Positions 16,888 to 63,985 of a stretch of DNA of 64,000 bases are shown here, piece by piece. Location: NCBI RefSeq assembly GCF_964204645.1, contig NC_134029.1:7830001-7894000 (forward strand), in the 5' to 3' direction. Source of the DNA: Tubulanus polymorphus. Taxonomy: Eukaryota; Nemertea; Palaeonemertea; Tubulaniformes; Tubulanidae. Below the pieces are notes generated by a model, which searched no databases, was not told the DNA's origin, and saw nothing but the letters and a program-made list of their open reading frames with translations. How positions within the stretch are numbered: the stretch's first letter is position 1; each line of letters starts with the position of its first letter. A program made the position numbers and the translations under genes.

Positions 16888-17809
16888 CTAAAATTACTGC
16901 ACGGATGTATCACCCAGTTTCCCGCAGCTTGTTGCCTTCTTTTCTCTTTCATTAATGCATTTTTGTTCCCGAATAATTTCATTGCTAATTTATTATCCGA
17001 AGGTTGAAATAAGGCAGTTATTTGTTCTCTGAGAAAATTCGTCGTTGAGATGCCACCGGATTTTTGGTCGCCACCGGGTAGATCCTCCTTCGGAGTCCCG
17101 TACAGACTGCCCGTGTCGTCGCCAGAAAATTGAACTTTTGAGTCCACTTTCTTGTAATTTTTTTCTGGACTAATGTAATCACTAACGATTGATTCGTTTT
17201 CACTGCAAGTATCGTCCATCGTTATGGTTATTGCTGGTGCCAAACGCCGTCGGCGTTCGGCAAGAGTAGGCGTCGAACCGCAGGTCGGTCTTGCCCGAAG
17301 AGAACCGAACCTGTGATTGAAGTTTTTACTTAACTTTAGGCTCGGAAATCTTCTCGTTAATTTTGGAAGCGGTGACCATTGTGTCGAACTGTCCTGTCTG
17401 TGAAAACGTGCTTGATTTGGAAGAGGAGCAATTGGGTTTGAGTTTTCTTTAGTGTTTAAGCTATCTAGTGAATTGGTTTTGACACGTCCATCTTGCATAT
17501 CTTGACTGACAACCGCGTCATAATCCGGAAGGCCGTCCGTTTCTTTAATGGTTTTTTCAGGAGATATTCGGGCTGCTTTTTCCGGTGAACTCCTATGAGA
17601 ATCGCCATTGACATTAGGTGGTGATTGGTTTGTGTTTGGAGTTGATTCTGCTGTACTATACGTCCCGATTGATGCATTGTTCGGTAATGTATTTGACTTC
17701 AAACTTCCCTCGGATTGCTCACGAATCTGAGACGGTAAGTCAACATTATCAACTGAAGCTTCGTCGTCGGCCATGTCCAAAATAAATTCTTCGCTGTCAG
17801 TATCAGAAG
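16888..17809 (-). CDS. HCN: HCN channel, second coding exon (cytoplasmic N-terminus)
   Basis: This 922-nt exon encodes the variable cytoplasmic N-terminus and the conserved HCN N-terminal domain of a hyperpolarization-activated cation channel (Ih current, cAMP-modulated). The last 50 or so residues are diagnostic: FLREQITALFQPSDNKL, MKLFGNKNAL and AAGNWVIHPCSNFR match the HCN block just before S1. The exon starts after the acceptor TTTTCCTTCCAG and ends in phase 2 at the donor AG|GTAAGT inside an Arg codon, the place where animal HCN genes are interrupted. The first part is acidic and Ser/Pro-rich. An in-frame ATG (17775-17773) with strong Kozak context gives an alternative internal start. 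The membrane and cyclic-nucleotide-binding exons lie left of the window. Confidence 0.92.
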
Positions 17810-18352
17810 CTGGAAGGAAAACGATCAAATATTATATGAAAATCAGAATGGTCGAAAGCATACCTGCATATATGATTTTAAAAACATCAATGCGACGATT
17901 GCAACGTAAATCAATGAGTAGCCAAACGGACGAACATGCAAAGCACAATTCACAAAAATATTCAAAATATTGCATCAACATCCGGATATTGTTGAATATT
18001 GTCATGGGGACACTTCAGTCCCTCCAGTAAACCCACCATTGGTTTGAGAGATGTCCCGCTGGTCGAGAAGTTCAAAATCATTCCACACGAATGTGGCTGA
18101 TGGACGTCCATCTCACCAGCCGACGAGATCAATTTTGACTACATTATCGCAAACCAATCAATGAGCAATCGTCTCAAAGGAAAAACTATGCGGCGATGAT
18201 TTGAATAAAGTATATTTATGTCGGTGGGCAGTGACGGCGATGCCAATAACAGCTGTTCGCCATTTTTATGCGCATACATTTCATAAGATGAGCCTCACTA
18301 GACGGGATCAATCTGTCAGACCAGCAGGCAAAAACTGGTGCCATTATCTTAC

Positions 18353-46400: not shown

Positions 46401-48637
46401 ATTTACTAACATATTCGAGATTTTTACAAGGTTCTATCGGGTGGCAGTGCGAACAAGATTCGAGTTCCCTAAGATTTTTAACATGCCTAATTCATCCAAA
46501 ATAGCGCAAAAATCTCTGTAGGCATATGGTCAATGATTAAAAAGACCACGTACTATTTGCTACAGGTGTGCTTCACTAAAAAGGATACCACCGAGATAAG
46601 CAGCGAATTGTTTCGGCCCGGAACGTATGCTGTACCGCGCTGTCGTTTTTCGAGTATGGGTTCCAGCTTTTTTCACATCATGAGGCCTGAAGTTAAATCC
46701 AAGTCAAATTCTCTTCACAGAATAATCAGATACTGCAAGCACTCAGTCTTATGTTGTCAAAATTGGTTCGTTTTTGCTAAAAGTTCTTTTCAGACTCTCA
46801 AATCCATATACAGTGGAACCTACTAATACTAATCTTGCGGGCAAAAAAGTGACATTGTCATATTTAACAGGTCTCATGCTATCCAAAGCTTGATTGATAT
46901 AAATATGTTAGCTCGGACATGCTGGAAATCATCATAATGGGTTTCATCTTAAACAGAATCGTTGTATCAACCAAGTTCAACTTTACAAGGGATCAGGATT
47001 AATTCAATGAATCCTGTTTCCCTTGCATATGCATTTGCTCATTTTAGTTATTCCTTTGGTCATTATGGTCTCTATAGGGAGAGTCTAAAATGTTGTGTCC
47101 TCTGAAATTTTTTTGAAAAAATTGAAACCTTTTAAATTAAATGTAGTGGGCTTTATTCTTAATATTACCCGTTTCTAATTTCTTTTACCTGAAAAGAACT
47201 CCATTTCCAGCTTCTCCCCACCATTTCACACGAACGTAAGTGACATCTGGTAGGTTTGGTGTCAACCACAATATCTGATTTATACACAATCGCAGATAAC
47301 ATCTCAACTGTCCGGATACCTGAGGTGGCAGACTTGTTTCAACGCGTATTTCTTCGGCCGGTAAACTTTCAACACTCTCTGAAATTAAATATCAAAAAGT
47401 GAGAATTGAATTTTAAGGCGTCAGAATTAACCTGTGCATGGATCGTTGTCATATCCGTCAATCAGGCAATCTGTCGCCAATACATATGGTAAAATTTAGA
47501 AATTCAGATAGGGCCTAGGTAAAACCTACGCCCGTGAAAATGGTAAATTGGGCAATCATATAGGCCTCAAGAGATAAAATCAATAAAAATGCGCCATCAC
47601 CTATAAGCATATTTCAAAATCAATAAATTAAACATATCATCTTTCTCATAAATATCTATAATTTTAATAAGCTGCCAATTTAAATCTGCTGAAATACACA
47701 GAGAAGAATGTGAGTCCTAACACCACCGTCCACTACTGACTATTACAAATTATTCAATTTTTTGTAAATCAAAATACTTTTGTTGTTAATTCAAATTTTG
47801 AAAACTGCTGTTGATTTCTGTTCGTTTTTGTGTTAAAATGTTCTTGTTTTTTCCATCACCATTATTTGCGTCATCGGGCTCGAGCGTTGCGTGTATTCAT
47901 TTACATAGTTAAACTGACTGAGAGTGAATAAATTTAAGGAAGTGGATATTTTGCCAATGCGGCATTATTTTAGTAAATTAGCTATTTTGCCAATGGCTAT
48001 ATATAATAAGATATAGTAATAAAATATAGGCAGTGGATATTTTGCCAATGCGGCATTATTCCTGTTAACGCTTTTTTGCCAATGGTGCGTTTTGATTGGC
48101 TTATTGACGCCACGCATGCGCACAGAGGTGCGCGACTTAGAAAATTCAAGGTCAAGGAAAGTGTGGAGAACTGAGTCAGAGAAAATAGCAGCATAGAGCG
48201 GGATTCGAACCCAGACCAGCAGATTGCTAGTCTAACGTCTTTCCACTAGACCACCGGGCTCACTCAAAACCACCCGTAATTTTTCACTACATATAGCCTC
48301 ACCTTACCCTAACCCTATCCCTTGGGGTAAAAACGGACCCTAATCCTCACCCTAACCCTAAACCTAACCCTCTAGACCCTAACCCTATCGGAACCGTCCC
48401 TAACCCTACACCCAATATAATGATGTTATTGTTATATTTTATTACTATGTCTTATTATATATAGCCATTGGCAAAATATCTACTAAATATCTTACTAAAA
48501 TAATGCCGCATTGGCGAAATATCCACTTCCAAATTTAAAATTGAATTTTTGAGTTTACCTGCTCCGCTTAAACTGCCTTTTTTCTTTCCTTTCTTGGTGG
48601 ATTTTGATTTCTTTTTTACTGGGTTTGGATTTTTCAT
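28243..48637 (-). CDS. C2CD3: C2CD3, C2 domain-containing protein 3 (complete, 44 coding exons)
   Basis: C2CD3 is a centriolar protein needed for centriole elongation, distal appendages and ciliogenesis. Forty-four exons were joined by matching splice sites and phases into 2560 codons (human about 2350). Coordinates, 5' to 3': 48637-48559, 47378-47189, 46686-46589, 46328-46220, 46122-46046, 45728-45565, 45207-45063, 44632-44437, 44070-43899, 43495-43364, 43276-43151, 43055-42863, 42483-42062, 41624-41469, 41290-41155, 41075-40912, 40565-40221, 39756-39670, 39517-39413, 39324-39245, 39034-38835, 38399-38271, 38106-38012, 37838-37719, 37626-37576, 37224-37024, 36733-36553, 36466-36338, 36252-36013, 35600-35460, 35220-35112, 34747-34592, 34063-33964, 33091-32907, 32615-32459, 32313-32262, 32044-31917, 31725-31657, 31465-31221, 31022-30204, 29927-29847, 29444-28854, 28737-28599, 28431-28243. 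Residue blocks such as FVEYQFPV, NFMVIEVWDK and WGEADCFIQYHFP match vertebrate C2CD3. The start ATG (48637) precedes a Lys-rich N-terminus, as in human. Least certain are exon 4's weak acceptor and the start of exon 39. Confidence 0.93.
31657..35600 (-). CDS. C2CD3: C2CD3 exons 30-38: last two C2 domains
   Basis: Residues 1508-1873. Exons 30-33 contain LCYVRYKFYDK, WYLREELLEVQVWVTYSD, LIGSAYVDLSSLDDRRR and SGVFPLFKPGSS. Exons 34-38 contain FAVHITIERAMHLTD, SCYVTYQTG, ASNNPVWNHEHETRLSKELL, LVFKAWHK, VIGFISVDVGPL and [20 protein letters not shown]-like strands, ending with the turn into the C-terminal region. A pogo/Tigger-like MITE lies in intron 32. A SINE-like tRNA head and a MITE end lie in intron 33. 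Confidence 0.9.
33400..33720 (-). repeat. tRNA-like B-box repeat and MITE end in C2CD3 intron 33
   Basis: On the minus strand, GTGGGTTCGAATCCC (around 33405-33425) is a Pol III B box, preceded by a GGTCAAGGGGTTC stretch. This resembles a tRNA-derived SINE head. Further along, 33690-33716 reads GGACCCCTGGCAAGCGAGGA on the plus strand, which matches the outer tip of the 3632-family MITE. Boundaries between the two repeats are unclear. Confidence 0.45.
34394..34571. mobile_element. pogo/Tigger-like MITE in C2CD3 intron 32
   Basis: The ends TACAGTGGAACCTCGTTAC and GTAACGAGGTTCCACTGTA are exact inverted repeats flanked by TA. Internal GGATATAACGAACTATCGG resembles the copy at 27707-27953. It is non-autonomous. 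Confidence 0.75.
36013..39324 (-). CDS. C2CD3: C2CD3 exons 20-29: two further C2 domains
   Basis: Residues 1033-1507. Exons 20-24 contain FEVVVEGVRDLGLLTDMIWG, EADCFIQYHFP, RTATTLCIPDPVFHDI, VPFELWCRYYSPNVRDQ and KLCAMVTMQKPGETSVQTFS. Exons 25-29 contain TVCISVGIIRSSGLKTAA, GVNSYVKLKLSFLSEE, FAPEFSTQMDFPCPLLW, LAEILETAEVLMEIWH, LLGTVVIPMKSLLTKRTGI-like and GLERVVGGVELSVKFAHHDD. All blocks follow the vertebrate order. Exon 23 adds a Gly-rich loop (about eight Gly) not obvious in the human protein. Confidence 0.92.
37292..37535. mobile_element. hAT-like MITE in C2CD3 intron 25
   Basis: The ends CAGGGTGGCCAC and GTGGCGCCACCCTG are inverted, the form seen in hAT-superfamily miniature elements. 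The body is TTCC- and AATT-rich. A related but eroded copy lies at about 42490-42690 in intron 12 (shared GAATCACATA-TGATAA, AGCATTATCC-AATT and TCCAGGTCAGTG blocks). Confidence 0.55.
39413..42483 (-). CDS. C2CD3: C2CD3 exons 13-19: central C2 domains
   Basis: Residues 561-1032. Exon 13 (422 nt) and exon 14 hold one C2 domain: LTLLGRIQVARVSIDVLQLL, TYFVEYQFPVV, VFPVLFDGSTIERWWKYAL, then HVGSCSIPLKAIL. Exons 15-16 are a Ser/Pro/Lys linker. Exons 17-19 hold a second C2: MTLHMILMVSDGRNINLHG, VCWGTFDPEFNFCQVAPV, MKNNFMVIEVWDKK, LIGIVKLSLHQFYMSL and NYMPVVDPFSGTQFGQLKV. The Asp pattern expected for calcium binding is incomplete, in line with the mostly calcium-independent C2 domains of this family. 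Confidence 0.9.
42490..42690. repeat. Eroded copy of the 37292-37535 element
   Basis: Similarity to the intron-25 element runs from an AATTCATTCGTTTTT-like block to CCAGGTCAGTG. The left CAGGGTGGC tip is missing. Confidence 0.5.
42863..45728 (-). CDS. C2CD3: C2CD3 exons 6-12: linker with low-complexity region
   Basis: Residues 185-560. Mostly disordered. Recognisable islands are YDSQTSIPTTDM at the start of exon 6, LVTALLNKGKKLREAMVVSA in exon 8 (matching the conserved LLSALL...KLRNAMVISAM motif of vertebrates) and IHDESILEELFYKRKG in exon 10. Exons 11-12 are rich in Ser, Asp, Lys, Arg and Glu, with a mixed-charge stretch suggesting a charged helix. Exon 10 begins with an ATG codon right after its acceptor; that Met is internal, not a start. 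Confidence 0.85.
46046..48637 (-). CDS. C2CD3: C2CD3 exons 1-5: N-terminal C2 domain
   Basis: Residues 1-184. Exon 1 gives a Lys-rich leader (NPVKKKSKSTKKGKKKG). Exons 2-5 give the C2CD3-type N-terminal C2 domain: GQLRCYLRLC (about 47-56), VRVKWWGEAGNG (about 76-87), TTARYSIRSGPKQFAAYL (exon 3), then LDVVKGPLMSILGQ and AELQVSVLLESL. Exon 3 ends at G|GTATCC and exon 4 begins AT, rebuilding an Asp as in the vertebrate order Y-L-x-D. Exon 4's acceptor (TTGGTAAAG) has a poor pyrimidine tract but is the only one that keeps frame and similarity. Intron 1 (1.18 kb) is the largest in the gene and carries the composite repeat at 47930-48537. Confidence 0.9.
48195..48263 (-). repeat. tRNA-like segment (SINE-type head)
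   Basis: The minus strand reads GGTCTAGTGGAAAGAC (A-box region with a 4-bp D stem GTCT/AGAC), a CTAGCAA loop, and GGGTTCGAATCCC (B box). The acceptor pairing is only four base pairs (GAGC/GCTC) and the anticodon stem is poor, so a working tRNA gene is unlikely. A homologous segment lies at 63925-63985. Confidence 0.6.
48303..48413. repeat. Degenerate interstitial CCCTAA (telomere-type) repeats
   Basis: About ten CCCTAA-like units, several in perfect tandem (CACCCTAACCCTAAACC), broken by short unrelated stretches. They lie in an intron and in a mobile-element-like structure, so this is not a chromosome end. Confidence 0.8.
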
Positions 48638-50335
48638 CGTTGATTCTTTCAATTAGACACGAAAACGTCGATTATTTTCGTTAAAATTGTCATAAATATC
48701 ACATTAGACACACATTCAGTCGATAAGTATTCATAAAGCCGCCATTTCCTAATCGTCCTAATTATTGCAATGCACCGATCAATGTGGTATTGACTATTTC
48801 TTGGATCAGGCCTATTCCGACTTGCGGTGATTGGCTTCGGATCATGAATCGGCGAACGAACAGCCGGCTAGACGATTTGCCGGGTTTTCGGGTAACCCTT
48901 GAACAATTTCGAAGACAACCCCATGCTCTATGATATGATGATAGCATATATGATAGCATAATCATCAGTTTGTATGCATTTATATTTTTTTGATCACCGT
49001 CAAATGTCACTGTTATTTCTATATTGTATAGCTACGGCCCTTCGGACCGGCTTAGCATATATTCACTATCGACTTTGTTTGATAAAATCTATTTGTACTC
49101 TAAAAAAGTAAGATTAATTAAGTTTCTATGGTAGAAGATGATACCATCATCGACTCTCAGGACGATTTCAGCGAGGAAAATCCCCTGTCTGGTCCCCTCC
49201 TAAGTTTCGGAATTTAGTAAAATAGATTCACTTAACAAAAGGTTGGAAAAATTAATACCTTGTTTCTCCTTTCTGCTGAGCTGCCGCCTATCTTCTATCC
49301 TGTGCTACTAAATGCATGATCAATTTTACTATAACGTACACCAGGCAGCTGATTCAATGGTATTGTATTTTTAAAAATGACCCGCCGGCCGATTATGAGA
49401 ACGAAGATTTTTGTTGAAGCTGCTAGATTGGTTGTAAGATGTGTTTTGCAAATATGACTGGATCAATGACACGGTTTATGTTCAATTCTAATGATCGATC
49501 AATCCGACATCAAAAATCAATTTCTACATTTTCCAGTTAAATCTGATAAACTTTCCATGCGTGGCTTTCATCTAACAATCTCATGATAACTAGACTATTG
49601 ATTCCATTAGGAGTTTCATTAGTGAATTGATAAGAATTTTAACGGCAAAACATCTGGGATTTCTCCTGTTTATAAGGCGGCGATGACCGCGTACACCTAC
49701 CAGTCTGGGATACTACGAGCAGGTACGTAAGCATTTATCTTGTCTATTACAACAAAATTTCATGACGAATTCTGGCGAAAGTTGCGGATTCGCTACAATC
49801 CGGAAACGTGGAAATGCAGACGGTTAACTGTATTTTCAGTTAGATTTGAAACATGAAGTCTGAGAGTATTCTCACTCTATTTTGAAACCATAATTCACGT
49901 GACCAATCTAATCTATTTATTCATTTATATCATTAAAGTACATCAGAATGATAAAATCAATACTATTTCTTCGGCCGGTAAACTTTCAACACTCTCTGAA
50001 AATAAATATCAAAAAGTGAGAATTGAATTTTAAGGCGTCAGAATTAACCTGTGCATGGATCGTTATCATTTCCATCAAAGGCAATCTGTCGCCAATACAT
50101 ATGGTAAAATTAAGAAATTCACATGACCTTCGCCCGTGAAAATGGTAAATGAAGAATTCTGCCGAAAGTTGCGGATTCGCTACAATCCGGAAAACGTGGA
50201 AATGCAGACGGTTAACTGTATTTTCAGTTAGATTTGAAACATGAAGTCTGAGAGTATTCTCACTCTATTTTGAAACCATAATTCACGTGACCAATCTAAT
50301 TTATTTATTCATTTATATCATTAAAGTACATCAGA
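48638..50335. promoter_or_regulatory. Divergent intergenic region between C2CD3 and the SOUL gene
   Basis: About 1.7 kb separates the two head-to-head start codons. It should hold both promoters. No TATA box or other defined element was assigned. The right third consists of the duplicated SOUL upstream block and a captured C2CD3 fragment (49767-50356). Confidence 0.45.
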
Positions 50336-50356
50336 ATGATGAAATCAATACTATTT
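49767..50356. repeat. Duplicated SOUL upstream block flanking a copied C2CD3 exon-2 fragment
   Basis: 49767-49968 and 50154-50356 are near-identical direct copies, from GAATTCTG to the first seven codons of the SOUL gene (ATGATAAAATCA in the left copy, ATGATGAAATCA in the right). Between them, 49966-50150 closely copies 47349-47548, which is the 5' part of C2CD3 exon 2 plus intron-1 sequence. The junctions share short microhomologies (TATTT on the left, AAAT on the right). The left SOUL start therefore runs into C2CD3-derived DNA and is a dead copy. Confidence 0.85.
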
Positions 50357-51765: not shown

Positions 51766-52062
51766 TAAACACTTAAAACAATATTCGACTGGATACGTCG
51801 TTTTTATTAAAGGCATTTTGGTTTCGAAGGCTTTAAGTTACTACACTTTCACCAAACTGTAGGGAATTCCAATATAAAGATTGTTTATAAAATCTATTCA
51901 CTAATAAAACCCAACACTACGATTTAAAATCCATGTATCCCATATAAATCAAGACATTTTACAATTTTCGATACAATTTATTCAACAATAAGCCCATCAC
52001 AACGTTTTGGTATCTGGAACTGAAAATGGAATTGTACACAACGTGTGTTCTAGCAAATTTAC

Positions 52063-52240
52063 ACGAGCAGGCGACCTATTAACAGAACTCTCAATCGTCT
52101 GTCTCTTTAGCAGCGCTTTCCTCGAAGCAACGAAAAACTTTTGCTAAGTTTATGGACGTTGCAACGGTCGGATTTCTAAAGCAACAAGCACAAAAACCCC
52201 TGAACGAAACAAAAGTGTTGCCGTATATTTTGTCACCCCT
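52063..52240 (-). pseudogene. HNMT-like pseudogene fragment (5' part only)
   Basis: The first 50 or so codons of the array gene are recognisable (DKIYGNTFVSFRGFCACC, INLAKVFRC). The start codon is altered (ATG to AGG) and the stretch matching RGLRVLSIG is frameshifted into stops. Similarity ends at about the first motif, so the rest is deleted. It lies at the left end of the array, in the same orientation as the intact copies. Confidence 0.75.
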
Positions 52241-52573
52241 GATAATAAAAAGTGCGTTTTTTATATTATGCATTAGCATTCATGATTTTAATCGGATAAG
52301 AGGCCTGAATTGTTAAGTCCAATTTAACATTTTGCATATCCGTGGTTATTCTACGCAACCTGTTACACAGACGGTATATAGCCGGTATCTATATATCGGG
52401 CAAATATCTAACATGAGTCTTATGTCATGGGTAATTCTCTTCAATTAGAGAACATTTTGGTTGTATCGAAACACAGATAGAACACAGATAGAATTCATCT
52501 TGTTATTCCGTCGTCGAGATAAGAATATATTTTTTTGCAATGAATCAAAAATTTCGAACTGCTACATATTCAA

Positions 52574-53461
52574 CTATTTCCGAGCGATCAGCAAAGTTTC
52601 ATTTGTATACGGAATTAAAGGAAATCCAACAGTCTGTACTGTATATCTGCGAATGATATTTTGTACTATAGCGCGTTCGTCATCCGTTAATTTACTGACA
52701 TCTCTGTCCGCCAAGAACGTTAGGGTATCATCTGCCAATTTACGAATTTCTTTATCCCATTCACTTATACATGGTCGACTAGGCATCAGAGCGATATGAA
52801 CTAGCGTTCCAACTTCACCAATTGTATGCGAAAGGGTTTGAGTGTCCGTTTGGAATAAAACATCATGGGCATTGATGTTCTCTAAACGAGCACGGGGTTC
52901 CTCAACAGTACTTTTTGATAAAGCGCTATCGATTTCCTCACGTAAAGTGACAACTGATTTGCTTGCATCGAGCGCTATAAATGTTTTACCATTGCTGTGA
53001 GTGAGGTGAAATAGCGACCACTCCAGAACAGCAGCAGGATCATCAAAGTAGAAGCAAACATGCGAAAACACCAATAAATCGTAGAAATTATTCGGCAGAA
53101 ATGATCCACTATCTTTCGAAAATGGTTGGTTGTGTATATTGTAAGTGAAGTTGAACTTACTGGCAAGTAAACTCATCCGCTTTTTGAGCTCAACCACCAG
53201 ATGAGTATTCGGTTCCACGCAATCTATCTGATCAATTTTAACATCACTTCCAACCGTATACAGCGTGTCCTCCAACATATACCCATGAGCTGAACCTATT
53301 GACAGAACTCTCAATCCTCGATCTTCATTAGCAGCACTTTCTGCAAAACAGCAACGAAGTGCTTTTGATAAATTTGTGTTCGTCGAAAAAACCGAACCGT
53401 CAAAACAACTGCAAAAATTTCTAAAAGAAACGAAAGCATCGCTGAGTATTTTGTCGTCCAT
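52574..53461 (-). CDS. Histamine N-methyltransferase-like protein, array copy 1
   Basis: An intact, intronless gene of 295 residues encodes a class I SAM-dependent methyltransferase of the HNMT type. N-terminal SFRNFC aligns with HNMT SFRRFL. The SAM-binding motif I is VLSIGSAHG (about 52-60, HNMT ILSIGGGAG). The acidic motif is CVEPN (81-85, HNMT VVEPS). A core strand FSHVCFYFDD (132-141) matches HNMT IQMLYYVKD, and the C-terminal TNETLLIARK matches the closing strand. The position of HNMT Gln143, which contacts histamine, is His here, so the substrate may differ. A TATATAAAG box lies about 90 bp upstream. It is most similar to copy 4. Confidence 0.85.
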   Translation of the reverse strand: MDDKILSDAFVSFRNFCSCFDGSVFSTNTNLSKALRCCFAESAANEDRGLRVLSIGSAHGYMLEDTLYTVGSDVKIDQIDCVEPNTHLVVELKKRMSLLASKFNFTYNIHNQPFSKDSGSFLPNNFYDLLVFSHVCFYFDDPAAVLEWSLFHLTHSNGKTFIALDASKSVVTLREEIDSALSKSTVEEPRARLENINAHDVLFQTDTQTLSHTIGEVGTLVHIALMPSRPCISEWDKEIRKLADDTLTFLADRDVSKLTDDERAIVQNIIRRYTVQTVGFPLIPYTNETLLIARK

Positions 53462-53547
53462 GTTATAACACAGGTGATATCCAGCAGTTATGAATGAATT
53501 ACGTATTCGACCCGATACAAATTTTTTAGAGTCATATCTCGTTCGCG

Positions 53548-53556
53548 CTTTATATA
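53548..53556 (-). promoter_or_regulatory. TATA box upstream of HNMT-like copy 1
   Basis: TATATAAAG on the minus strand lies about 87-95 bp before the ATG. Just upstream is GCGCGAGGTTACCAG. A near-identical GTGCGAGGTTACTGG precedes copy 4, so the promoter block was duplicated along with the gene. Confidence 0.55.
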
Positions 53557-53672
53557 CGACTGGTAACCTCGCGCAATCAGTTATTCAAAACATGCAGTAA
53601 GCAATACATTGAAGTAATGTGAGCAAAATGCAATTTACAGTGATCTCATTTCCGTGGAATATCTATTGTGTG

Positions 53673-53874
53673 AACAAACAACGTATATGAACTTAACCTT
53701 TCTCTGGAAACCATATCTTTCCACTTGTTTTATTGGCGACCGACCCAATAACAGTCGGTCACACGAAGGTCACAACAAACAACGTATATGAACTTAACCT
53801 TTCTCTGGAAACCATATCTTACCACTTGTTTTATTGGCGACCGACCCAATAACAGTCGGTCACAACAAAGTCAC
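53673..53874. repeat. 101-bp tandem duplication
   Basis: Two adjacent near-identical copies run from AACAAACAACGTATATGAAC to CAGTCGGTCACA; start points are 101 bp apart. The unit lies between copies 1 and 2 of the methyltransferase array. Part of it (TTATTGGCGA..CCAATAAC) recurs near 61078-61098, upstream of copy 4. Confidence 0.85.
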
Positions 53875-54359
53875 ATTCAGACCCACATTCTGGACAAATT
53901 CTTTGCTAAAGCATTTATTTTTGAAGGTTTTAAAGAGATTTACGAACTTCCAAAACTAGTTAAAGAACATTCCAAGTGCCATCAAGATTACTGTGTGGAC
54001 GTTTGTCACTAGAATCACCAGGTTCGGGTGAACCTTTATTAGTAACGAGGAACAAGAAATCAATTTCTTAAGAAGCGTGCGTGTGTTGGTGGAAAATATG
54101 AGGGGTATCCTGAATCCCTTGGGATCCCCCTTAAACCCAGCCTTGCACGAATAATCTATTGTAATCTTCAATTTTGTGTCGAAGATTTTTGAAGACCGGC
54201 AAAAGAATTGACACTAAGACGTAACTCGATTGTATATGGCATTTATTTTGAAGGCTTTAATTAAGTTTCCACGCCTTAAAGTCTGAGAAATCAATACATG
54301 TTGCAAATCTGATTTCTAATGTTGCACTATCATTGCGGAAATACCGAGTATTTTTTCAA

Positions 54360-55250
54360 TTACTTTCTAGCAATGACAAAGATTTCATTCGTGTGTGGAA
54401 CTATTGGAAATCCGTAACTTTCAAACGCATATTTACGAATTATATTTTGTATCGTAACGCGTTCGGCATCCGTTACTTTACTGACATCTGTTTCCGCATA
54501 GAAACTCAGGGTGTCATCAGCCGATTTACGAATTTCTTTATCCCGTTCACTGATACATGGTCGACTGGGCATCAGAGCGATATGAACTAGCGTCCCAACT
54601 TCACCAATTGTATGCGAAAGCGTTTGAGTTTTCGTTTCGGTCAAAACAGCGTGAATGTCGACGTCTTCGCTACGAGTATGCGGTTTCGTGTCGGTGTTTT
54701 TCGATAAGGCGCTTTCTATTTCATCACGTATAGCGACAACTAAACCACTTGTTTCGATTACAATAAAAGCTCGACCATTTCTTTGAGTGAGTTGAAACAA
54801 CGACCACTCCAGAATAGCAGCAAAATCATCAAAGTGATAGCAAACATGTGAAAACACCAATACATCGAAGAAGTTATTCGGTAGAAATGATCCGCTATCT
54901 TTCGAAAATGGTTGGTTGTGTATATTGGAAGTGAAGTTGAACTTACTGGCCAAAAAACTCATCCGCTCTTTAAGCCCAACCACCATGTGAGTATTCGGTT
55001 CCACGCAATCTATCTGATCAATTTTAACATCACTCCCAACTGTATACAATGTATCTTCTAGCAAATGCCCATGAGCAGGACCTATTGACAGAACTCTCAA
55101 TCCTCGATCTTCTTTAGCAGCACTTTCTGCAAAACAGGAACGAAGCACTTTTCCTAGGTTTATGTGTTTTGAGATGGTCGAATTTTCGAAGCAACATGCA
55201 CAACAGTTCCGGAAAGAATCATAAGCATCGCTGAATATTTTGTCATCCAT
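54360..55250 (-). CDS. Histamine N-methyltransferase-like protein, array copy 2
   Basis: An intact single exon of 296 residues starts at the MDDK methionine shared by the other copies. An upstream in-frame ATG at 55277 would add nine residues but is not conserved. Motif I is VLSIGPAHG, the acidic motif is CVEPN, and the core strand is FSHVCYHFDDFAA, where Tyr of the usual YYFDD is His. It has a CACC cluster at about residues 17-20, part of the variable Cys-rich N-terminus of the family. The C-terminus is PHTNEIFVIARK. Confidence 0.85.
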   Translation of the reverse strand: MDDKIFSDAYDSFRNCCACCFENSTISKHINLGKVLRSCFAESAAKEDRGLRVLSIGPAHGHLLEDTLYTVGSDVKIDQIDCVEPNTHMVVGLKERMSFLASKFNFTSNIHNQPFSKDSGSFLPNNFFDVLVFSHVCYHFDDFAAILEWSLFQLTQRNGRAFIVIETSGLVVAIRDEIESALSKNTDTKPHTRSEDVDIHAVLTETKTQTLSHTIGEVGTLVHIALMPSRPCISERDKEIRKSADDTLSFYAETDVSKVTDAERVTIQNIIRKYAFESYGFPIVPHTNEIFVIARK

Positions 55251-55559
55251 AATAAACCGACAGTTGATCGTTTTCATACAACACGACGAGGTAGTCGAAA
55301 TACAAATTTGTGAATACGCAACCTGTTACACAGAATATAACCTACATCCATATATCCATATTTTTATTAGTCTCATAGTGCCTGTTCATATCGAAAATAA
55401 ATTGTAGGGTCTTATTGTCCCTAAATATATTGACCTAAATGAACCAGTCATATCAGGTTCGAATTCAGGTTTTCACTTTCTATTTATGAATTTCCAAAGG
55501 TTTGCATATTAATGATGCCGCTATAAGCAGAAAACCCGTTATGGCTGTTTTTAGACGAA

Positions 55560-56030
55560 TTGTATTCTTTACCATAACGCATTCGGTTCATGCCACTATA
55601 TTGACTCCAGTTTCCACGTAGAGAGTCAGGGCATAATCAGCCATGGTTTTCGCCCTCCACTGATATATATACATGGCCGACTAAGGCACCCAATTTCACT
55701 AGCAACTGGATGAAAGTGATTCAGTTTTCGTTATTGCTAAAACAGCTCGAATGCTGACTTCACCATAACGAGTTTCTTCTGTTTCGTGTCAGTAGTTTTC
55801 GATGCATTGCTTCTTACGTTTTTCGAATTTATTTCATCTTTAAAATTTCAGAAACGAATATGTGATCTAATAATCGAAGCAGCTATTTGATTAATCTGTT
55901 TTTCCCACTTGTTTGTGATCAAAAATTGGAAATAAAGTGTATTGATAGACCTTCCACTTGTTTTGAATGCAATAACAGCTCGGCCCATTCTGTGAGTTGA
56001 TATAAAACCACCCGAAATAGCAGCATACGG
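55560..56030 (-). pseudogene. Strongly decayed HNMT-like copy
   Basis: The DNA still aligns with copy 2: the plus-strand stretch TTCCACGTAGAGAGTCAGGGC followed by ATAATCAGCCATGG matches its TTCCGCATAGAAACTCAGGG...GTCATCAGCCGATT. Further on, CGAGTTTCTTCTGTTTCGTG and CAGCTCGGCCCATTCTG match its centre. Many stops, frameshifts and gaps are present. The unit's 3' flank is also recognisable near 56095-56150 (GAATAGATTTTCTTGCAACA against the flank of copy 1). Confidence 0.65.
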
Positions 56031-56631
56031 AAACTAATTTAAAAATATGGGTCGCGTCGAAATAAAGAAAGAATTAATCTTGCTATCTCCGTTGTTCAGA
56101 TATGAATAGATTTTCTTGCAACAAATCAAAATTTCGAACGAGCCTTTTGTGGTACAGGAAAATTATAAATCAAAAGTTCACAATAACGCCAATAAACCCC
56201 ATTTATGAAATTATAGGACAGTCATTCATAACGTCACATTTGGCGTTTTTGTTGAGCTTTTTCAAATTTCACATACGAGTAAGAGATTTTTTTAACATAT
56301 GTAAATGAAGTAACATTTAAAAACCACATTCGACTGGATTAGAAGATATCGTTAAAGGCTTTTATTTTCACACATAAAAAAGATAGTTAGCAACAGTAAG
56401 CTTATGTATTTGACACATTACGTAGATATTGATAAATATAACAAATACAACAATCACTCTATATACTTTTGATATAACCATCAATTACAATAATAATTTA
56501 GAGATAAAAAGGCATTATGAAATGTTGTTGAATTCGTATGCACGAAAAGTGCACCTAGACATACAGTATAATAGAACGGGAATACAAATTTGATTTTAAA
56601 TGTCTGCAGTACCATGCACTACTATTACTAG

Positions 56632-57519
56632 TTATTTTCTAGCGATGACAAAGGTTTCTACAGTATATGGAATGACAGAAAATCCATAACTTTCAACCGT
56701 ATGATCACGAATGATATTTTGTATCGTAACGCGTTCGTCTTCTGTTAGCGTACTGACATCTGTTTCCGAAAAGAACGACATGGTCTCATCGGCCAATTTA
56801 CGCATTTCTGTATCCCGTTTGCTGATACACGGTCGACTAGGCGTGAGAGCCACGTGGACCATCGCGGCAACTTGACCAACTGTATGCGAAAGCGTTTGGG
56901 TTTTTGTTTGGGCTATAACAGCGTGAATAGTGACTTTTTCACAACGAGTATGCGGTTTCGTGTCGGTGTTCTTCGATAAAGCGCTTTGTATTTCATCCCG
57001 GATAGTGACATGAAAATCATCTGTTTCAAGCGCGATGAACGAGCGACCATTTTTGTTAGTGAGTTGAAATAGCGACCGCTCCAGGATGTTAACAAGATCA
57101 TCAAAATAGTAGGAAACATGTGAAAACACCAGTAGATCATAGAAATCATTCGGTAGAAATGATCCACTGTCTACCGTAAATGGTTGGTTGTGTATATTGT
57201 AAGTGAAGTTGAACTTACTGGCAAGTAAACTCATCCTCTCTTTTAGCTCAATCACCATTTGAGTATTAGGTTCCACGCAATCTATCTGATCAATCTTAAC
57301 ATCTCCAAGTTTATACAACGCTTCTTCTATTATATGCCCATGAGCAGGACCTATTGACAGTACTCTTAATCCTCTATTTTCACCAACAGCATTTTCCGAG
57401 TAACAGCATTGAAACGCTTTTGCTAAGTTAATGGGTATCGCGAAAGTCGAATTTCCAACGATACAACCACAGAATCTTCGGAAGGAAGCATAAGCATCGC
57501 TGTATGTTTTGTCATTCAT
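56632..57519 (-). CDS. Histamine N-methyltransferase-like protein, array copy 3
   Basis: An intact single exon of 295 residues starting MNDKTYSDAY. Motif I is VLSIGPAHG, followed by IIEEALYKLGDVKID, which lacks one residue relative to the other copies. The acidic motif is CVEPN, the core strand is FSHVSYYFDDLVN and the C-terminus is YTVETFVIARK, in which the Asn of the usual TNET is Val. That Asn aligns with HNMT Asn283, a reported substrate contact, so copy 3 may have a different specificity from its neighbours. It is the most divergent intact copy. Confidence 0.85.
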   Translation of the reverse strand: MNDKTYSDAYASFRRFCGCIVGNSTFAIPINLAKAFQCCYSENAVGENRGLRVLSIGPAHGHIIEEALYKLGDVKIDQIDCVEPNTQMVIELKERMSLLASKFNFTYNIHNQPFTVDSGSFLPNDFYDLLVFSHVSYYFDDLVNILERSLFQLTNKNGRSFIALETDDFHVTIRDEIQSALSKNTDTKPHTRCEKVTIHAVIAQTKTQTLSHTVGQVAAMVHVALTPSRPCISKRDTEMRKLADETMSFFSETDVSTLTEDERVTIQNIIRDHTVESYGFSVIPYTVETFVIARK

Positions 57520-57818
57520 GATAAACCGTCAGAATTGACTTTTCGATAGTGCAATGAACTAACGCCCAAATGAGAAGACTGTTGTTTGACTTCCTAAACT
57601 GGCTTGCTTTTTCAGAGTTTGTTTTTCAGCCAGTGCTGGAGACCTGACTTACATAACAACAAAAATAGTCATAAGATTTACAACCTCCCAGGGTCTGTGA
57701 TTTAGATCACGTGTTGCATGCGTTCGCACGGTCGAAAAAGCACGTGACTACGAGACCTCTTTATGTGACAAAATAAAAATGTGTACAGTACATCGATTGA
57801 GCTTGTATACCAGTATTT

Positions 57819-57910
57819 ATGGTGGCTGATTCGGGACATGTAAAAATTTTTTTCGTCCTCCACGAAAACGCGCAAAAACAAATCTGACCGCGCAAAATCA
57901 AACTTTTTTC
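57819..57910. mobile_element. Truncated foldback element end
   Basis: ATGGTGGCTGATTCGGGACAT is the FB-family tip seen at 19762 and 26205. It is followed by CGCAAAAACA/CGCAAAATCA repeats, a third internal motif type. No matching opposite end was found. It abuts the methyltransferase pseudogene that starts at about 57925. Confidence 0.55.
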
Positions 57911-57924
57911 TTATACATTTTTTA

Positions 57925-58620
57925 CATTTTTATACACGAATGAAACCTAATGACAAAATATCTTAAAGTTTCATTTGTAGACGGAAAACTGTGCATGGGA
58001 AATCCAGGAATTTCTACTGCAAAGACTATAGTGCGTTCGTCGTCGAGTTTACTGACATCTCTATCCGCCAAAAACGTTGGGGTATCATCTGCTAATTTAC
58101 GAATTTCTTTTTCCAGTTCACTGATACACGGCAGAGCCAAATGGGCCATTGCTCCAACTTGGCCAACTATATACGACAGCGTTTGAGTTTCGGCTAAAAC
58201 AATGCTGGCCTTTTCACGCTATAACGCTTACACTTACGTCGATTGCAATAAAATCTCGACCATTTCTGGGAGTGAGTTAAAATAACGACCATTCCAAAAT
58301 AGCAGCGAAATCATGGCAAACATGTGAAAAAACAAATAAATCGTACAATTAAGTTATTCGGTAGAAATGATCCACTGTCTTTCGTAAATGGGTGGGAGGT
58401 GTATATTGTAAGTGAAGTACTGGACAGCAAACTCATCTGTCTTTTTTACTCAACCACCAAATTTGAGTATTCGGTTCCACGCAATCTATCTGATCAAGGA
58501 GGTGGAAGTTAAAAACAATTCCCTGATCTGATCAACTTTGACATCTTCTCCAATTGTACACAACGTGTCTGATAAATCATACCCGTGGACTGGGCCTATT
58601 GACATTACTCTGAAAAAAAT
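57925..58620 (-). pseudogene. HNMT-like pseudogene between copies 3 and 4
   Basis: Recognisable blocks in 3'-to-5' order are the C-terminal TNETL, CISELEKEIRKLADDTPTFL with DVSK, the motif around CVEPN, and a first-motif region reading about VMSIGPVHG. They are interrupted by a 1-bp deletion near DVSKLDDER, deletions in the centre, a duplicated GATCTGATCA-type insertion near 58500 and stops. The N-terminal 45 codons are missing. A 3' truncation coincides with the foldback element. Confidence 0.75.
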
Positions 58621-59077
58621 CATCAATCTATTACACAGGATTATAACTACATATTGGGTTTAAACCTGTTTCTCAAATTGTTCACGCAACGGCAGTTTCC
58701 AAGACAGTAGTGTCCAATTTCCAAGAAAAATCTAAATAAACGGGTAAATAATGCAGTTGTGAATGAATATTTTAAACAAGGAATGAGTGTGAAATATGTT
58801 TTTATTTGTGCGCACTATCGGACACTATTATACTCAATATATTATTCACTTAAGATGATGAAGGCTCCAACTCTCCTTATCTCTGCATATCCTAGCAACG
58901 TGATAACAAAATATACAAACTATTCGCATGCAAAAGGCTTCTAATTGGAATGTATCAAAGAATCGGTAGTTCCCCATTTAGAAAACAGTTAAGAATTCAT
59001 ATGATATAAATTTTGCAGTTTTTGATGATTTTCAGTCACAAGGAGAGTCGATTCTGAATGCACTACTACGTAGTCAA

Positions 59078-59965
59078 CTATCTCCGAGCGATCAGCAAAG
59101 TTTCATTTGTATACGGAATTATAGGAAATCCATAACTATCCACAGTATATTTACGAATGATATTTTGGACTATAGCGCGTTCGTCATCCGTTAGTTTACT
59201 GACATCTCTATCCACCAAGAACGTTAGGGTATCATCTGCCAATTTACGAATTTCCTCATCCCGTTCACTACTAATACATGCTCCACTTGGCACAAGAGCG
59301 ATGTGAACTAATGTTCCAACTTCACCAATTGTATGAAAAAGCGTTTGAGTTTTCGTTTTTGACAAAAGATATTGGATATTGGTGTTCTCCAGATGAGCAT
59401 GCAGTTCTTCTGTATTTTCTGATAAAGCGCTATCGATTTCCTCACGTAATGTGACAACTGATTTACTAGTATCGAGCGCTATAAATGTTTTACCATTGCT
59501 GTGAGTGAGGTGAAATAGCGACCACTCCAGAACAGCAGCAGGATCATCAAAGTAGAAGCAAACATGCGAAAACACCAATAAATCGTAGAAGTTATTCGGT
59601 AGAAATGATCCGCTATCTTTCGAAAATGGTTGGTTGTGTATATTGTAAGTGAAGTTGAACTTACTGGCAAGTAAACTCATCCTCTCTTTAAGCTCAACAA
59701 CCATATGAGTATTCGGTTCCACGTAATCGATCTGATCAATTTTAACATCACTTCCAACCGTAAACAAAGTGTTTTCGAGAAGATGTCCCTGAGCAGAACC
59801 TACTGACAGAACTCTCAATCCTCGATCATCTTTGGCAGCACTTTCTACAAAACAGCAGCGAAATGCTTTTGATAAATTTCTGTTCGTAGAATAAACAGAA
59901 CCGGCAAAACAACTGCAAAAATGTTTGTAAGAAACTAAGGCAGCGCTGAGTGTTTTGTCATCCAT
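59078..59965 (-). CDS. Histamine N-methyltransferase-like protein, array copy 4
   Basis: An intact single exon of 295 residues. The central part is almost the same as copy 1 (FYFDDPAAVLEWSLFHLTHS), which suggests recent duplication or gene conversion. Differences include DYVEPN for DCVEPN in the acidic motif, VLSVGSAQG for motif I (His to Gln), PSGACISSERDEE instead of PSRPCISEWDKE, and a final ARR. The catalytic fold looks whole. The promoter shares GCGAGGTTACTGG with copy 1, with a TTATATAT stretch about 100 bp before the ATG. Confidence 0.85.
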   Translation of the reverse strand: MDDKTLSAALVSYKHFCSCFAGSVYSTNRNLSKAFRCCFVESAAKDDRGLRVLSVGSAQGHLLENTLFTVGSDVKIDQIDYVEPNTHMVVELKERMSLLASKFNFTYNIHNQPFSKDSGSFLPNNFYDLLVFSHVCFYFDDPAAVLEWSLFHLTHSNGKTFIALDTSKSVVTLREEIDSALSENTEELHAHLENTNIQYLLSKTKTQTLFHTIGEVGTLVHIALVPSGACISSERDEEIRKLADDTLTFLVDRDVSKLTDDERAIVQNIIRKYTVDSYGFPIIPYTNETLLIARR

Positions 59966-61600
59966 GATAAATCAACAGTAAGCCATCCAGTGCGATCTAT
60001 TCGACCCGATGAAAAATCTCATTTATTTTGACCCAGTAACCTCGCACAATTTCGTCACAGAAAAAATATATAAGCAATGTTGTATTAATAGTATATATGC
60101 ATACAATATTCTTTCATGCTGTAAATTACATATTTTGTTTAATCTCGATTAATGTTGTTATTTTGAGAATTGACATGTCTGGTTATGTAATAATTTATGT
60201 TGAGTTGTTTGGGTTGTTTGAGTTGTTTGTGGACAATTAGTGTCCGTGGTTACTCCTTGTCATAACATGTCATCACTAAAATTGTATATAAGGTTTTGAT
60301 TCTGACAATTAAGAAGAATGTTGAGATGTAATAGATTTATGGTAGAGAATAGAAACGAAGAAATATGAACATTATCAACGTTTAGTTTTGTCTTCTTGGT
60401 GGTCGCTGGTTTACTCTGCAGTCCGAGAAAAATGCTGCATGAAAATTCCTCATTTTCTTGGGAGATCCAAATTGTGTGAATATAACACGAGAATATCTGA
60501 ACCTTGGGCAGGTTATTCTGAAAATCATATTCTAATGTAAGCGCAGCGGGAAGTTCTCGACACGGTTTCCAAAATACAAATTAGATATATATACTTGAAG
60601 TCATTCTCAGTGCAAAAATACACATTCAGGAATTTGTCAGAACACCGAATTACTTCTGAAATACCTCTCATTAATTGTCAACATTGGAGGCACCAATACT
60701 TTCTCGTAGAATTCCAGTAAATCAGCATCATCAATAATCAGACTGATTGAACTGAGATGCGGATTTTTCTTAATCTTAGCATATTCAGCATATTTCTGGG
60801 CACCCAGCAATCATTTCCGTAAACTGCTGCTCTAACTAATGTGAGATGATTTCCACCGTGTAATAAACCTAGCCGAACATCGGTTTTGCGAATGACAGTT
60901 AGTCGGAACTTGAGTGTGGAAATAGTCGACAACGGAATTGGGCGCGGTCGCTGTAGTTCGGATATATCACCAAGATCTACTGTGAAATGCGTTAAGACCG
61001 AACTAAAGTGCGTTCGGTTATTGGTTCCGACCACTAGTCGACTAGCTACGAAAAAAATCGATGTTTGCCCTATCTGTTTATTGGCGATCCAATAACCTCA
61101 GTCAGTTAGACGAAGTTGTGCAAAAAAACACACAAAGACTAAGAACCACATTCAACCAGAAAACATCCCGTTTCGTTAAAGCATTTATTTCTACGGTTTT
61201 ATAGAGATTTACCGACTTCCAAATCTGATTAATTAACATTTCAGCCATAAAGTTACATTTGTACATGTGATGAAAACCTTTGTGCACCAATTATTTTATG
61301 TAATATACGATTAAGCGTAAAACTACATCGCTTTATAGCGTACATAATTGAATAATACATAACTACATAATTTTATGATAGGAAAATACATGAAACGATG
61401 TGTAAAACACATTATATTCAACTAATAATTGAGCGACGCGAAAATCGCAAAGGTTCATATTCTTAAATCATGGAGAAGACAGCAGTTCGTTGAATTCTTC
61501 CATCATGAAAAAAAGAGACGGAACATCGATTATTTACATTCCGTATAACGGTGGAAATCATATCATATCACGTATACAATGGTAATATTACGTTAAACAG
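59966..61600. other. Spacer between HNMT-like copies 4 and 5
   Basis: No gene is called. A 98-codon minus-strand frame at 60738-61034 has no recognised motif. 61070-61260 repeats the 3' flank of the array unit (AAGCATTTATTT, GAGATTTAC, GACTTCCAAA) also seen at 53820-53960, marking a duplication boundary. Confidence 0.5.
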
Positions 61601-62494
61601 TTATTTCCTAGCGATGACGAAGGTTTCATTAATATAAGGAACTATAGGAAATCCATGACGTTCAACGGTATATCTACGGACAGTATCTTGTATGCTAGCG
61701 CGTTGGTCGTCCGTTAGTTTACTGACATCCGTTTCTGCATAGAACGCCAGGGTATCATCAGCCAATTTACGAATTTCTTTATCCCGTTCACTGATACATG
61801 GACGACTGGGCATCAGAGCGATATGAACTAGCGTCCCAACTTCACCAACTGTGTGCGAAAGCATTTGAGTTTTCGTTTTGGCTAAAATATCGCGAATACT
61901 GATGTTTTCGATGCAAGTATGCGGTTTTCTTACGGTAGTTTTCGATAAAGTGCGCTTTACTTCATTAGAAATTTTGGGTACGGAATTACTCGAGTCGACT
62001 GCAATAAACGATCGACCATTGCTGTTAGTGAGTTGAAAAAGCGACCTCTCCAGAACAGCAGCGGGATCATCCAAATAGTAGCAAACATGCGAAAACACTA
62101 ATACATCGTAGAAGTGATTCGGTAGAAATGAGCCACTGTCTTTCGTAAACGATCGGTTATGTATCGAATGAGTGAAGTTGAACCTTTTGGCCAGTAAACT
62201 CATCCGCTTTTTGAGCTCAACCACCATATGAGTATTCGGTTCCACGCAATCAATCTGATCAATTTTAACATCACTTCCAATCGTATACAGTGTGTTTTCC
62301 AGCATATACCCATGGGCTGGACCTATTGACAGTACTTTCAATCCTCGATCTTCTTTTGCAGAATTTTCAGCGAAACAGCAACGAAATGCTTTAGCCAAGT
62401 TTATGTATGTTGAATAGTCTGAATAGTCAAAACAACAACTGCAGAAATTCCGGAAAGAACCGAAAGCGTCGCTGTATATTTTGTCATCATCCAT
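61601..62494 (-). CDS. Histamine N-methyltransferase-like protein, array copy 5
   Basis: An intact single exon of 297 residues starting MDDDKIYSD (one extra Asp). It has a CSCC cluster at about residues 18-21, motif I VLSIGPAHG, acidic motif CVEPN, core strand FSHVCYYLDDPAA and C-terminus YINETFVIARK. Residues 165-190 diverge from the other copies, the region expected to line the substrate pocket. It is the outermost, presumably first-transcribed member at the right end of the array. Confidence 0.85.
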   Translation of the reverse strand: MDDDKIYSDAFGSFRNFCSCCFDYSDYSTYINLAKAFRCCFAENSAKEDRGLKVLSIGPAHGYMLENTLYTIGSDVKIDQIDCVEPNTHMVVELKKRMSLLAKRFNFTHSIHNRSFTKDSGSFLPNHFYDVLVFSHVCYYLDDPAAVLERSLFQLTNSNGRSFIAVDSSNSVPKISNEVKRTLSKTTVRKPHTCIENISIRDILAKTKTQMLSHTVGEVGTLVHIALMPSRPCISERDKEIRKLADDTLAFYAETDVSKLTDDQRASIQDTVRRYTVERHGFPIVPYINETFVIARK

Positions 62495-63910: not shown

Positions 63911-63985
63911 CTAGGGTTAGGGTTAGTAGTGGAAAGACGCTGCGCTAGCAATAATATGCTGGCCCGGGCTCGAATACTGCTCTAT
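63911..63985 (+). repeat. TTAGGG stretch plus tRNA-like segment, second copy
   Basis: CTAGGGTTAGGGTTAG is followed directly by TAGTGGAAAGACGC, GCTAGCAAT and GGGCTCGAATACTGCTC. These align with the tRNA-like segment at 48195-48263 read on its own strand, with a decayed B box. In both places the TTAGGG run is upstream of the tRNA-like head in the same orientation. Confidence 0.6.

Follow-up and report, generated by a model that had tools for sequence, protein, structure and literature searches.

A local cluster of putative HNMT-like methyltransferase genes belonging to a larger single-exon family in the genome of Tubulanus polymorphus

Introduction

Histamine N-methyltransferase (HNMT) is known as a histamine-inactivating enzyme of one or few copies. 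P450, UGT and GST are clustered detoxification families in which gene conversion is found. Here we describe an array of methyltransferase genes in a 64,000-nucleotide stretch of the Tubulanus polymorphus genome, referred to throughout as the window (C5:7830001-7894000, contig C5 being NC_134029.1, of a 267.8 Mb assembly in 77 contigs). It belongs to a larger family of single-exon methyltransferase genes in this one genome, of which it forms one cluster.

Background on HNMT relatives was taken from three sources. HNMTs are reported in Deuterostomia, Acoela and Anthozoa in a survey of monoamine genes (PMC10244343), and acceptor contacts of HNMT are given as Glu28, Gln143 and Asn283 (PMC9867436). 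In several deuterostomes hnmt-like genes are in tandem, four of them adjacent in the acorn worm, and invertebrate HNMT-like proteins share 26-30% identity with vertebrate proteins (PMC3660329). One change of acceptor among HNMT kin is described, to carnosine in birds: chicken HNMT-like is carnosine N-methyltransferase, an HNMT paralogue in which Arg177 replaces HNMT Tyr147 (PMC3660329).

Results

Array content and enzyme class

Five intact open reading frames (ORFs) of 295-305 amino acids (aa), each running from ATG to stop, were called on the minus strand between window positions 52574 and 62494 (Table 1), and their products, P0001 to P0005, are 61-83% identical in pairwise comparison. P0002 shortens to 296 aa if translation is taken from the ATG matching the start of its fellow copies. 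Decayed copies were detected by nhmmer with a DNA profile built from the five intact copies; three were found, the weakest of them (55529-56025) reaching a tblastn E value of only 0.092. Beyond these, nhmmer gave four weak plus-strand matches (E 0.011-0.59) that lie inside intact copies in antisense, and the reversed window, used as a control, gave no nhmmer match at E ≤ 1. Chance origin of the array matches is excluded. An earlier annotation made from the letters alone (the sequence-only reading) had counted eight related units in one orientation, five intact and three decayed, and had noted that they lack introns. The count was borne out, with all eight units on the minus strand across 52030-62494, and so was the lack of introns, all five intact copies being single-exon.

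Four of the five window proteins scored above the 27-bit cut-off of Pfam family PF13489, the fifth scored 26.3 bits, and three members of other clades scored 29.3 (above) and 26.8 and 24.2 bits (below). Human HNMT likewise has PF13489 as its best Pfam match. NCBIfam gave a single chance-level match (E 0.13) in one of the five window proteins. The S-adenosylmethionine (SAM) site residues G58, G62 and E85 are unchanged in 38/38 intact family members, in agreement with the conserved SAM site of the sequence-only reading, and on these sequence features the family can firmly be assigned to the class I SAM-dependent methyltransferases.

Kinship with HNMT was assessed by profile, shuffle and structure comparison. 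Alignment of the family with HNMT by hhalign gave a probability of 77% and E 2e-5, at 21% identity to human HNMT; a second comparison gave 16%. The entire protein scored 18.9 bits against HNMT (shuffles ≤5.7), the SAM core gave p=0.0005 against 2000 shuffles, and the N-terminal extension gave p=0.001 (one of 2000 shuffles higher, at 13.7 bits) or, for one clade alone, p=0.0005. Two structure predictions were made from the five window proteins, and both were poor (mean predicted local distance difference test score, pLDDT, 44.7 and 36.2), for which reason they were not used to describe a pocket. In a Foldseek search of 350,542 PDB chains, for which the query model was poor, the two best matches were HNMT chains, aligned over 210 and 193 columns, and ranks 3-5 aligned over 113-153. 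Modelling against HNMT, which the sequence-only reading had proposed as a check, returned HNMT as the top match, from a model too poor for comparison of pockets. The HNMT likeness itself was upheld by Pfam, hhalign, shuffle tests and Foldseek together, with a class I fold and HNMT as the nearest solved relative.

Two results weigh against this kinship: the C-terminal half scored 0.9 bits against HNMT (p=0.0135) with no alignment, and HNMT was not among the matches listed in filtered PDB profile searches. The family might accordingly be a generic class I methyltransferase lineage of PF13489 type with no special tie to HNMT. That alternative is rather unlikely in our judgement, given that the N-terminal extension lies outside the generic domain and still resembles HNMT, and that HNMT heads the Foldseek ranking with the longer alignments. 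Because the C-terminal half is unaligned and the Glu28 and Gln143 contacts are missing in all five window copies, the proteins are, as judged from sequence, HNMT-like and not HNMT.

Acceptor-site residues

His occupies the Gln143 place in all five window copies, as the sequence-only reading had stated for every intact copy, and across the family the place holds His in 36, Gln in one and Asn in one of the 38 members. The single member with Gln (C10:10112819) has the longest terminal branch in the family tree. The unrelated methyltransferase 2p7h likewise has His there; His may simply be a common residue at this place, and since 2p7h shares it, His alone says little about substrate. The proposal that it points to a new small-molecule substrate is weakened to that extent. 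The Glu28 place was located by counting residues without gaps from the aromatic at the N-terminus, in an alignment uncertain by about one residue. Read in this way, it is Cys in 5/5 window copies and in 7/38 members, all within the window's eleven-member clade, and Glu in 9/38 members, all within a ten-member clade from C8, C6, C9, C10 and C11; the remaining clades have Gly, Asn, Val and others. The Glu28 place is more telling than the Gln143 place. The Asn283 contact could not be placed, as the C-terminal half is without alignment to HNMT, and the place of HNMT Tyr147 holds Tyr in 35, Phe in two and His in one of the 38 members.

Family members elsewhere and the spread of copies

A tblastn search of the organism's own genome with P0005 as the only query gave 50 matches, from which 38 intact loci were obtained, each running from ATG to stop in one frame (38/38), encoding 285-338 aa and together spread over nine contigs (C2, C3, C4, C5, C6, C8, C9, C10 and C11). 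The family therefore comprises at least 38 intact members. Decayed or interrupted loci number eight, seven among the tblastn matches plus the window relic at 55529-56025, which was found by nhmmer only. A candidate intron-bearing parent at C8:3280809-3289175 was rejected: what interrupts it reads as several kb of inserted retroelement-like sequence bearing near-identical direct repeats, not as introns (ORFs read by eye, without a repeat library).

Two copies on C3 nest among the window copies, and a window-only clade was rejected by the approximately unbiased (AU) test (p=0.0004 for the core, 0.004 for the ends); copies have therefore moved between chromosomes. The closest relative of P0003 is a copy on C3, and the C3 copy C3_27438 shares with the 56.6 kb window copy some 185 nt of upstream sequence as well as, judging a gapped alignment by eye, some 330 nt of downstream sequence that runs past an AATAAA.

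The sequence-only reading had further proposed a retrocopied founder followed by segmental duplication that included flanks. A retrocopied founder is possible and is compatible with one-exon members. Duplication of flanks was not borne out, since DNA similarity among the window copies ends no more than about 20 bases from the coding ends and 2/20 flank comparisons reached z>3 in a mononucleotide shuffle test of low power (upstream 0/10; downstream 2/10, P0002/P0005 at 6.8 and P0001/P0004 at 3.2, with two more downstream comparisons at 2.2 and 2.3). Segmental duplication is nonetheless compatible with these data, neutral flanks at a synonymous divergence (dS) of about 0.5 being hard to align.

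Every copy, also within clusters, could instead be a separate reverse-transcribed insertion of a family mRNA. Such repeated retroposition would suit the single-exon state of 38/38 intact members on nine contigs, the little that window copies have in common outside coding DNA, and the transcript-sized block common to C3_27438 and the 56.6 kb copy. Inspection by eye of the C3 copy's 3' end showed no marks of retroposition, such marks decaying with age. The C10 pair, inverted, 220 kb apart and 98.3% identical over 1001 nt, argues the other way: at its edges no direct repeat longer than 6 nt was found by script and no poly-A by eye, and beyond a sharp edge the 3' flanks look related by eye, which fits conversion. 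The C6 trio and the C8_8722/C36 pair have 2-3 kb in common, flanks included, as in ordinary duplication, and eight units in one orientation would be unusual for retroposition. We consider repeated retroposition improbable as a general account. The C6 trio (C6:17500271, 17956682 and 18283352) is 92-97% alike over most of 2.9 kb including flanks, with copies 330-780 kb apart, and represents recent long-range duplication within one contig.

Selection and regional divergence

The ratio of nonsynonymous to synonymous divergence (dN/dS) was 0.28-0.39, at dS 0.28-0.68, in 10/10 intact window pairs; there is purifying selection between the window copies, and the ratio speaks for function. By residues, dN/dS in the window was 0.25 (1-31), 0.29 (32-49), 0.26 (core, 50-164), 0.52 (165-206), 0.25 (207-245) and 0.36 (246-297), so that only residues 165-206 are clearly raised. 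Divergence of the N-terminus and of residues 165-190, as described in the sequence-only reading, was therefore found in both places, with faster protein change in the second alone. Fast N-terminal protein evolution in the window was rejected (dN/dS 0.25, with 0.26 for the core); the greater divergence of the N-terminus comes with greater divergence of its silent sites, the proportion of differing synonymous sites (pS) being 0.60 against 0.31 in the core. In three other groups the N-terminus was somewhat higher in dN/dS than the core (0.44/0.31, 0.52/0.36 and 0.34/0.27), and values above 1 were obtained in small segments of two clusters, with very few silent changes behind them.

That the array is mostly functionless relic DNA would accord with the decay of 3/8 window units and with five further decayed or interrupted loci elsewhere in the genome, but the dN/dS of all ten intact pairs and the full-length frames make it very improbable. 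The same low standing is given to a founding of the intronless family by horizontal transfer from bacteria, which the single-exon state of every copy would suit, against which no relative was found among 128 pattern matches in 84,980 prokaryote species (one genome each); that scan and one of viral contigs (56 pattern matches, no relative) used two family patterns and reach only relatives that keep them.

Silent differences in the core and possible gene conversion

Silent differences between several closely spaced copies are depleted in the core. In the C2 pair they affect 4/103 core codons and 35/79 of the rest (p=1.8e-11), in the C4:23863/23866 pair 8/107 and 35/100 (p=7e-7), and in the C5:865/867 pair 6/109 and 27/122 (p=2e-4). 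Overall, 13/35 within-cluster pairs show a core deficit at p<0.05, compared with 0/11 hand-picked unlinked pairs, one of which (C8_8497/C8_8722) was flagged by the scan test described below. When copies from different clusters are paired, less closely related than in those 11, no region is in deficit (0.518 in the N-terminus, 0.520 in the core, 0.572 in residues 165-206 and 0.492 in the C-terminus), at values near saturation.

A scan for concordant silent stretches, covering five clades and 34/38 members, gave p<0.01 in 13/122 within-clade pairs: 4/27 pairs within 30 kb and 9/95 pairs lying farther apart or on other contigs. Eleven of the 13 tracts fall inside residues 34-162. Several flagged pairs have members in common, so they do not count as independent. 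In several clusters the simplest reading is gene conversion that mostly affected the core, with the N-terminus and residues 165-206 remaining distinct. Weighing against it are the 22/35 within-cluster pairs without a core deficit, one C6 copy whose silent differences are confined to the core, and the window itself, where conversion is suggestive only. By cluster, the deficit was found in 0/3 pairs on C9, 0/3 on C6, 1/10 in the cluster at 9.1 Mb of C4, and not in the C10 pair. For the window, 5/10 pairs gave p<0.05 by Fisher test and 3/10 were flagged by the scan, both uncorrected, with one of the three scan tracts lying outside the core (178-246).

Features of the window and decayed family loci

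Coordinates of the array, of the decayed or interrupted loci and of further features in the window are collected in Table 1. The Ion_trans_N domain of the minus-strand frame at 16884-17831 is a domain known from HCN-type channels.

Table 1. Members of the array, decayed or interrupted family loci, and other features of the window. Positions without a contig label are those of the window.
Feature	Position	Strand	Description
P0001	52574..53461	-	intact single-exon methyltransferase ORF, 295 aa; PF13489 28 bits (cut-off 27)
P0002	54360..55277	-	intact single-exon methyltransferase ORF, 305 aa from first ATG; PF13489 33.6 bits
P0003	56632..57519	-	intact single-exon methyltransferase ORF, 295 aa; PF13489 26.3 bits (just below cut-off 27)
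P0004	59078..59965	-	intact single-exon methyltransferase ORF, 295 aa; PF13489 30.6 bits
P0005	61601..62494	-	intact single-exon methyltransferase ORF, 297 aa; PF13489 31.8 bits
Decayed copy	52030..52238	-	5' coding part only; nhmmer E 1.2e-38
Decayed copy	55529..56025	-	two pieces, second half of coding region; nhmmer E 1.6e-26 and 1.9e-4
Decayed copy	57965..58629	-	broken frame, fragments spread over two reading frames and containing stops; nhmmer E 9.9e-75 and 4.3e-46; also tblastn
Decayed locus	C5:7624321		two stops
Decayed locus	C36		one stop
Decayed fragments	C5:868254; C4:9115745
Interrupted copy	C8:3276001-3294000 region		split by retroelement-like insertion
Tandem repeat	53673-53875		101-base unit present twice in tandem (96% alike), some 210 bases upstream of the intact gene at 52574-53461
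Direct repeat	49762-50356		about 208 bases long, its copies 98% alike at a distance of 388
Telomere-like repeat	48337-48387		about eight imperfect ACCCTA units (75% matches), like a short interstitial telomere-type repeat
tRNA-like match	48198-48254	-	Rfam 29.2 bits against a threshold of 29, E 0.055
Inverted recurrence	48193-48248; 63927-63985		78% alike, inverted; may be a tRNA-derived repeat
Open frame	16884-17831	-	Ion_trans_N (PF08412, E 2e-24)

Discussion

The expansion described here is real, functional-looking and sizeable. Families organised in this way, tandem and dispersed with signs of conversion, are known; what stands out is how large this one is and that its members have a single exon. 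With HNMT (PDB 1jqd, 1jqe) the family has in common PF13489 as top Pfam domain, and it resembles HNMT in the N-terminal helix, the SAM core and length (292 aa in HNMT). It differs in the Cys and His that window copies carry at the Glu28 and Gln143 places, and in being single-exon and multi-copy. The clusters resemble what is described for chicken carnosine N-methyltransferase in that hnmt-like genes lie near each other, and differ at the residue that is Arg177 in chicken, where Tyr, Phe or His stands here (Arg in 0/38). Identity to human HNMT, at 21% and 16% in two comparisons, is below the 26-30% described between invertebrate HNMT-like and vertebrate proteins (PMC3660329). The family might include HNMTs of the kind covered in the monoamine-gene survey (PMC10244343). 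A large expanded intronless HNMT-like family was not found described in the open-access literature, in which long result lists were covered in part.

On balance we lean towards the array being a local cluster of an expanded class I SAM-dependent methyltransferase family, distantly related to HNMT, that works and arose as follows. Each enzyme would bind SAM in its Rossmann core and methylate a small molecule, with an amine or a ring nitrogen as the likeliest acceptor. The acceptor pocket would be lined by residues 165-206 together with the N-terminal helix, so that the acceptor would differ by copy, and the family would serve in detoxification or specialised metabolism. Its founder would have been a retrocopied, already intronless gene, whose copies later dispersed in short units and multiplied locally by tandem duplication.

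More tentatively, and with less than even likelihood, the family may be a diversification system of about 40 one-exon genes. Ectopic conversion, also between chromosomes, would keep recopying the SAM core, and diversification would be left to residues 165-206 and to the N-terminal helix, whose Glu28 place varies by clade (Glu, Cys, Gly, Asn, Val), so that a repertoire of acceptor specificities results. Clusters of P450, UGT and GST genes are comparable in having clustered copies with homogenised and divergent segments; here the enzyme is another, all intact copies are one-exon, and some conversion candidates span contigs.

About 40 one-exon relatives in one genome, with a cofactor core homogenised in places and varying presumed acceptor segments, form a natural variant series for studying how acceptor choice evolves in the HNMT fold, and such a series could show which small molecules this organism methylates.

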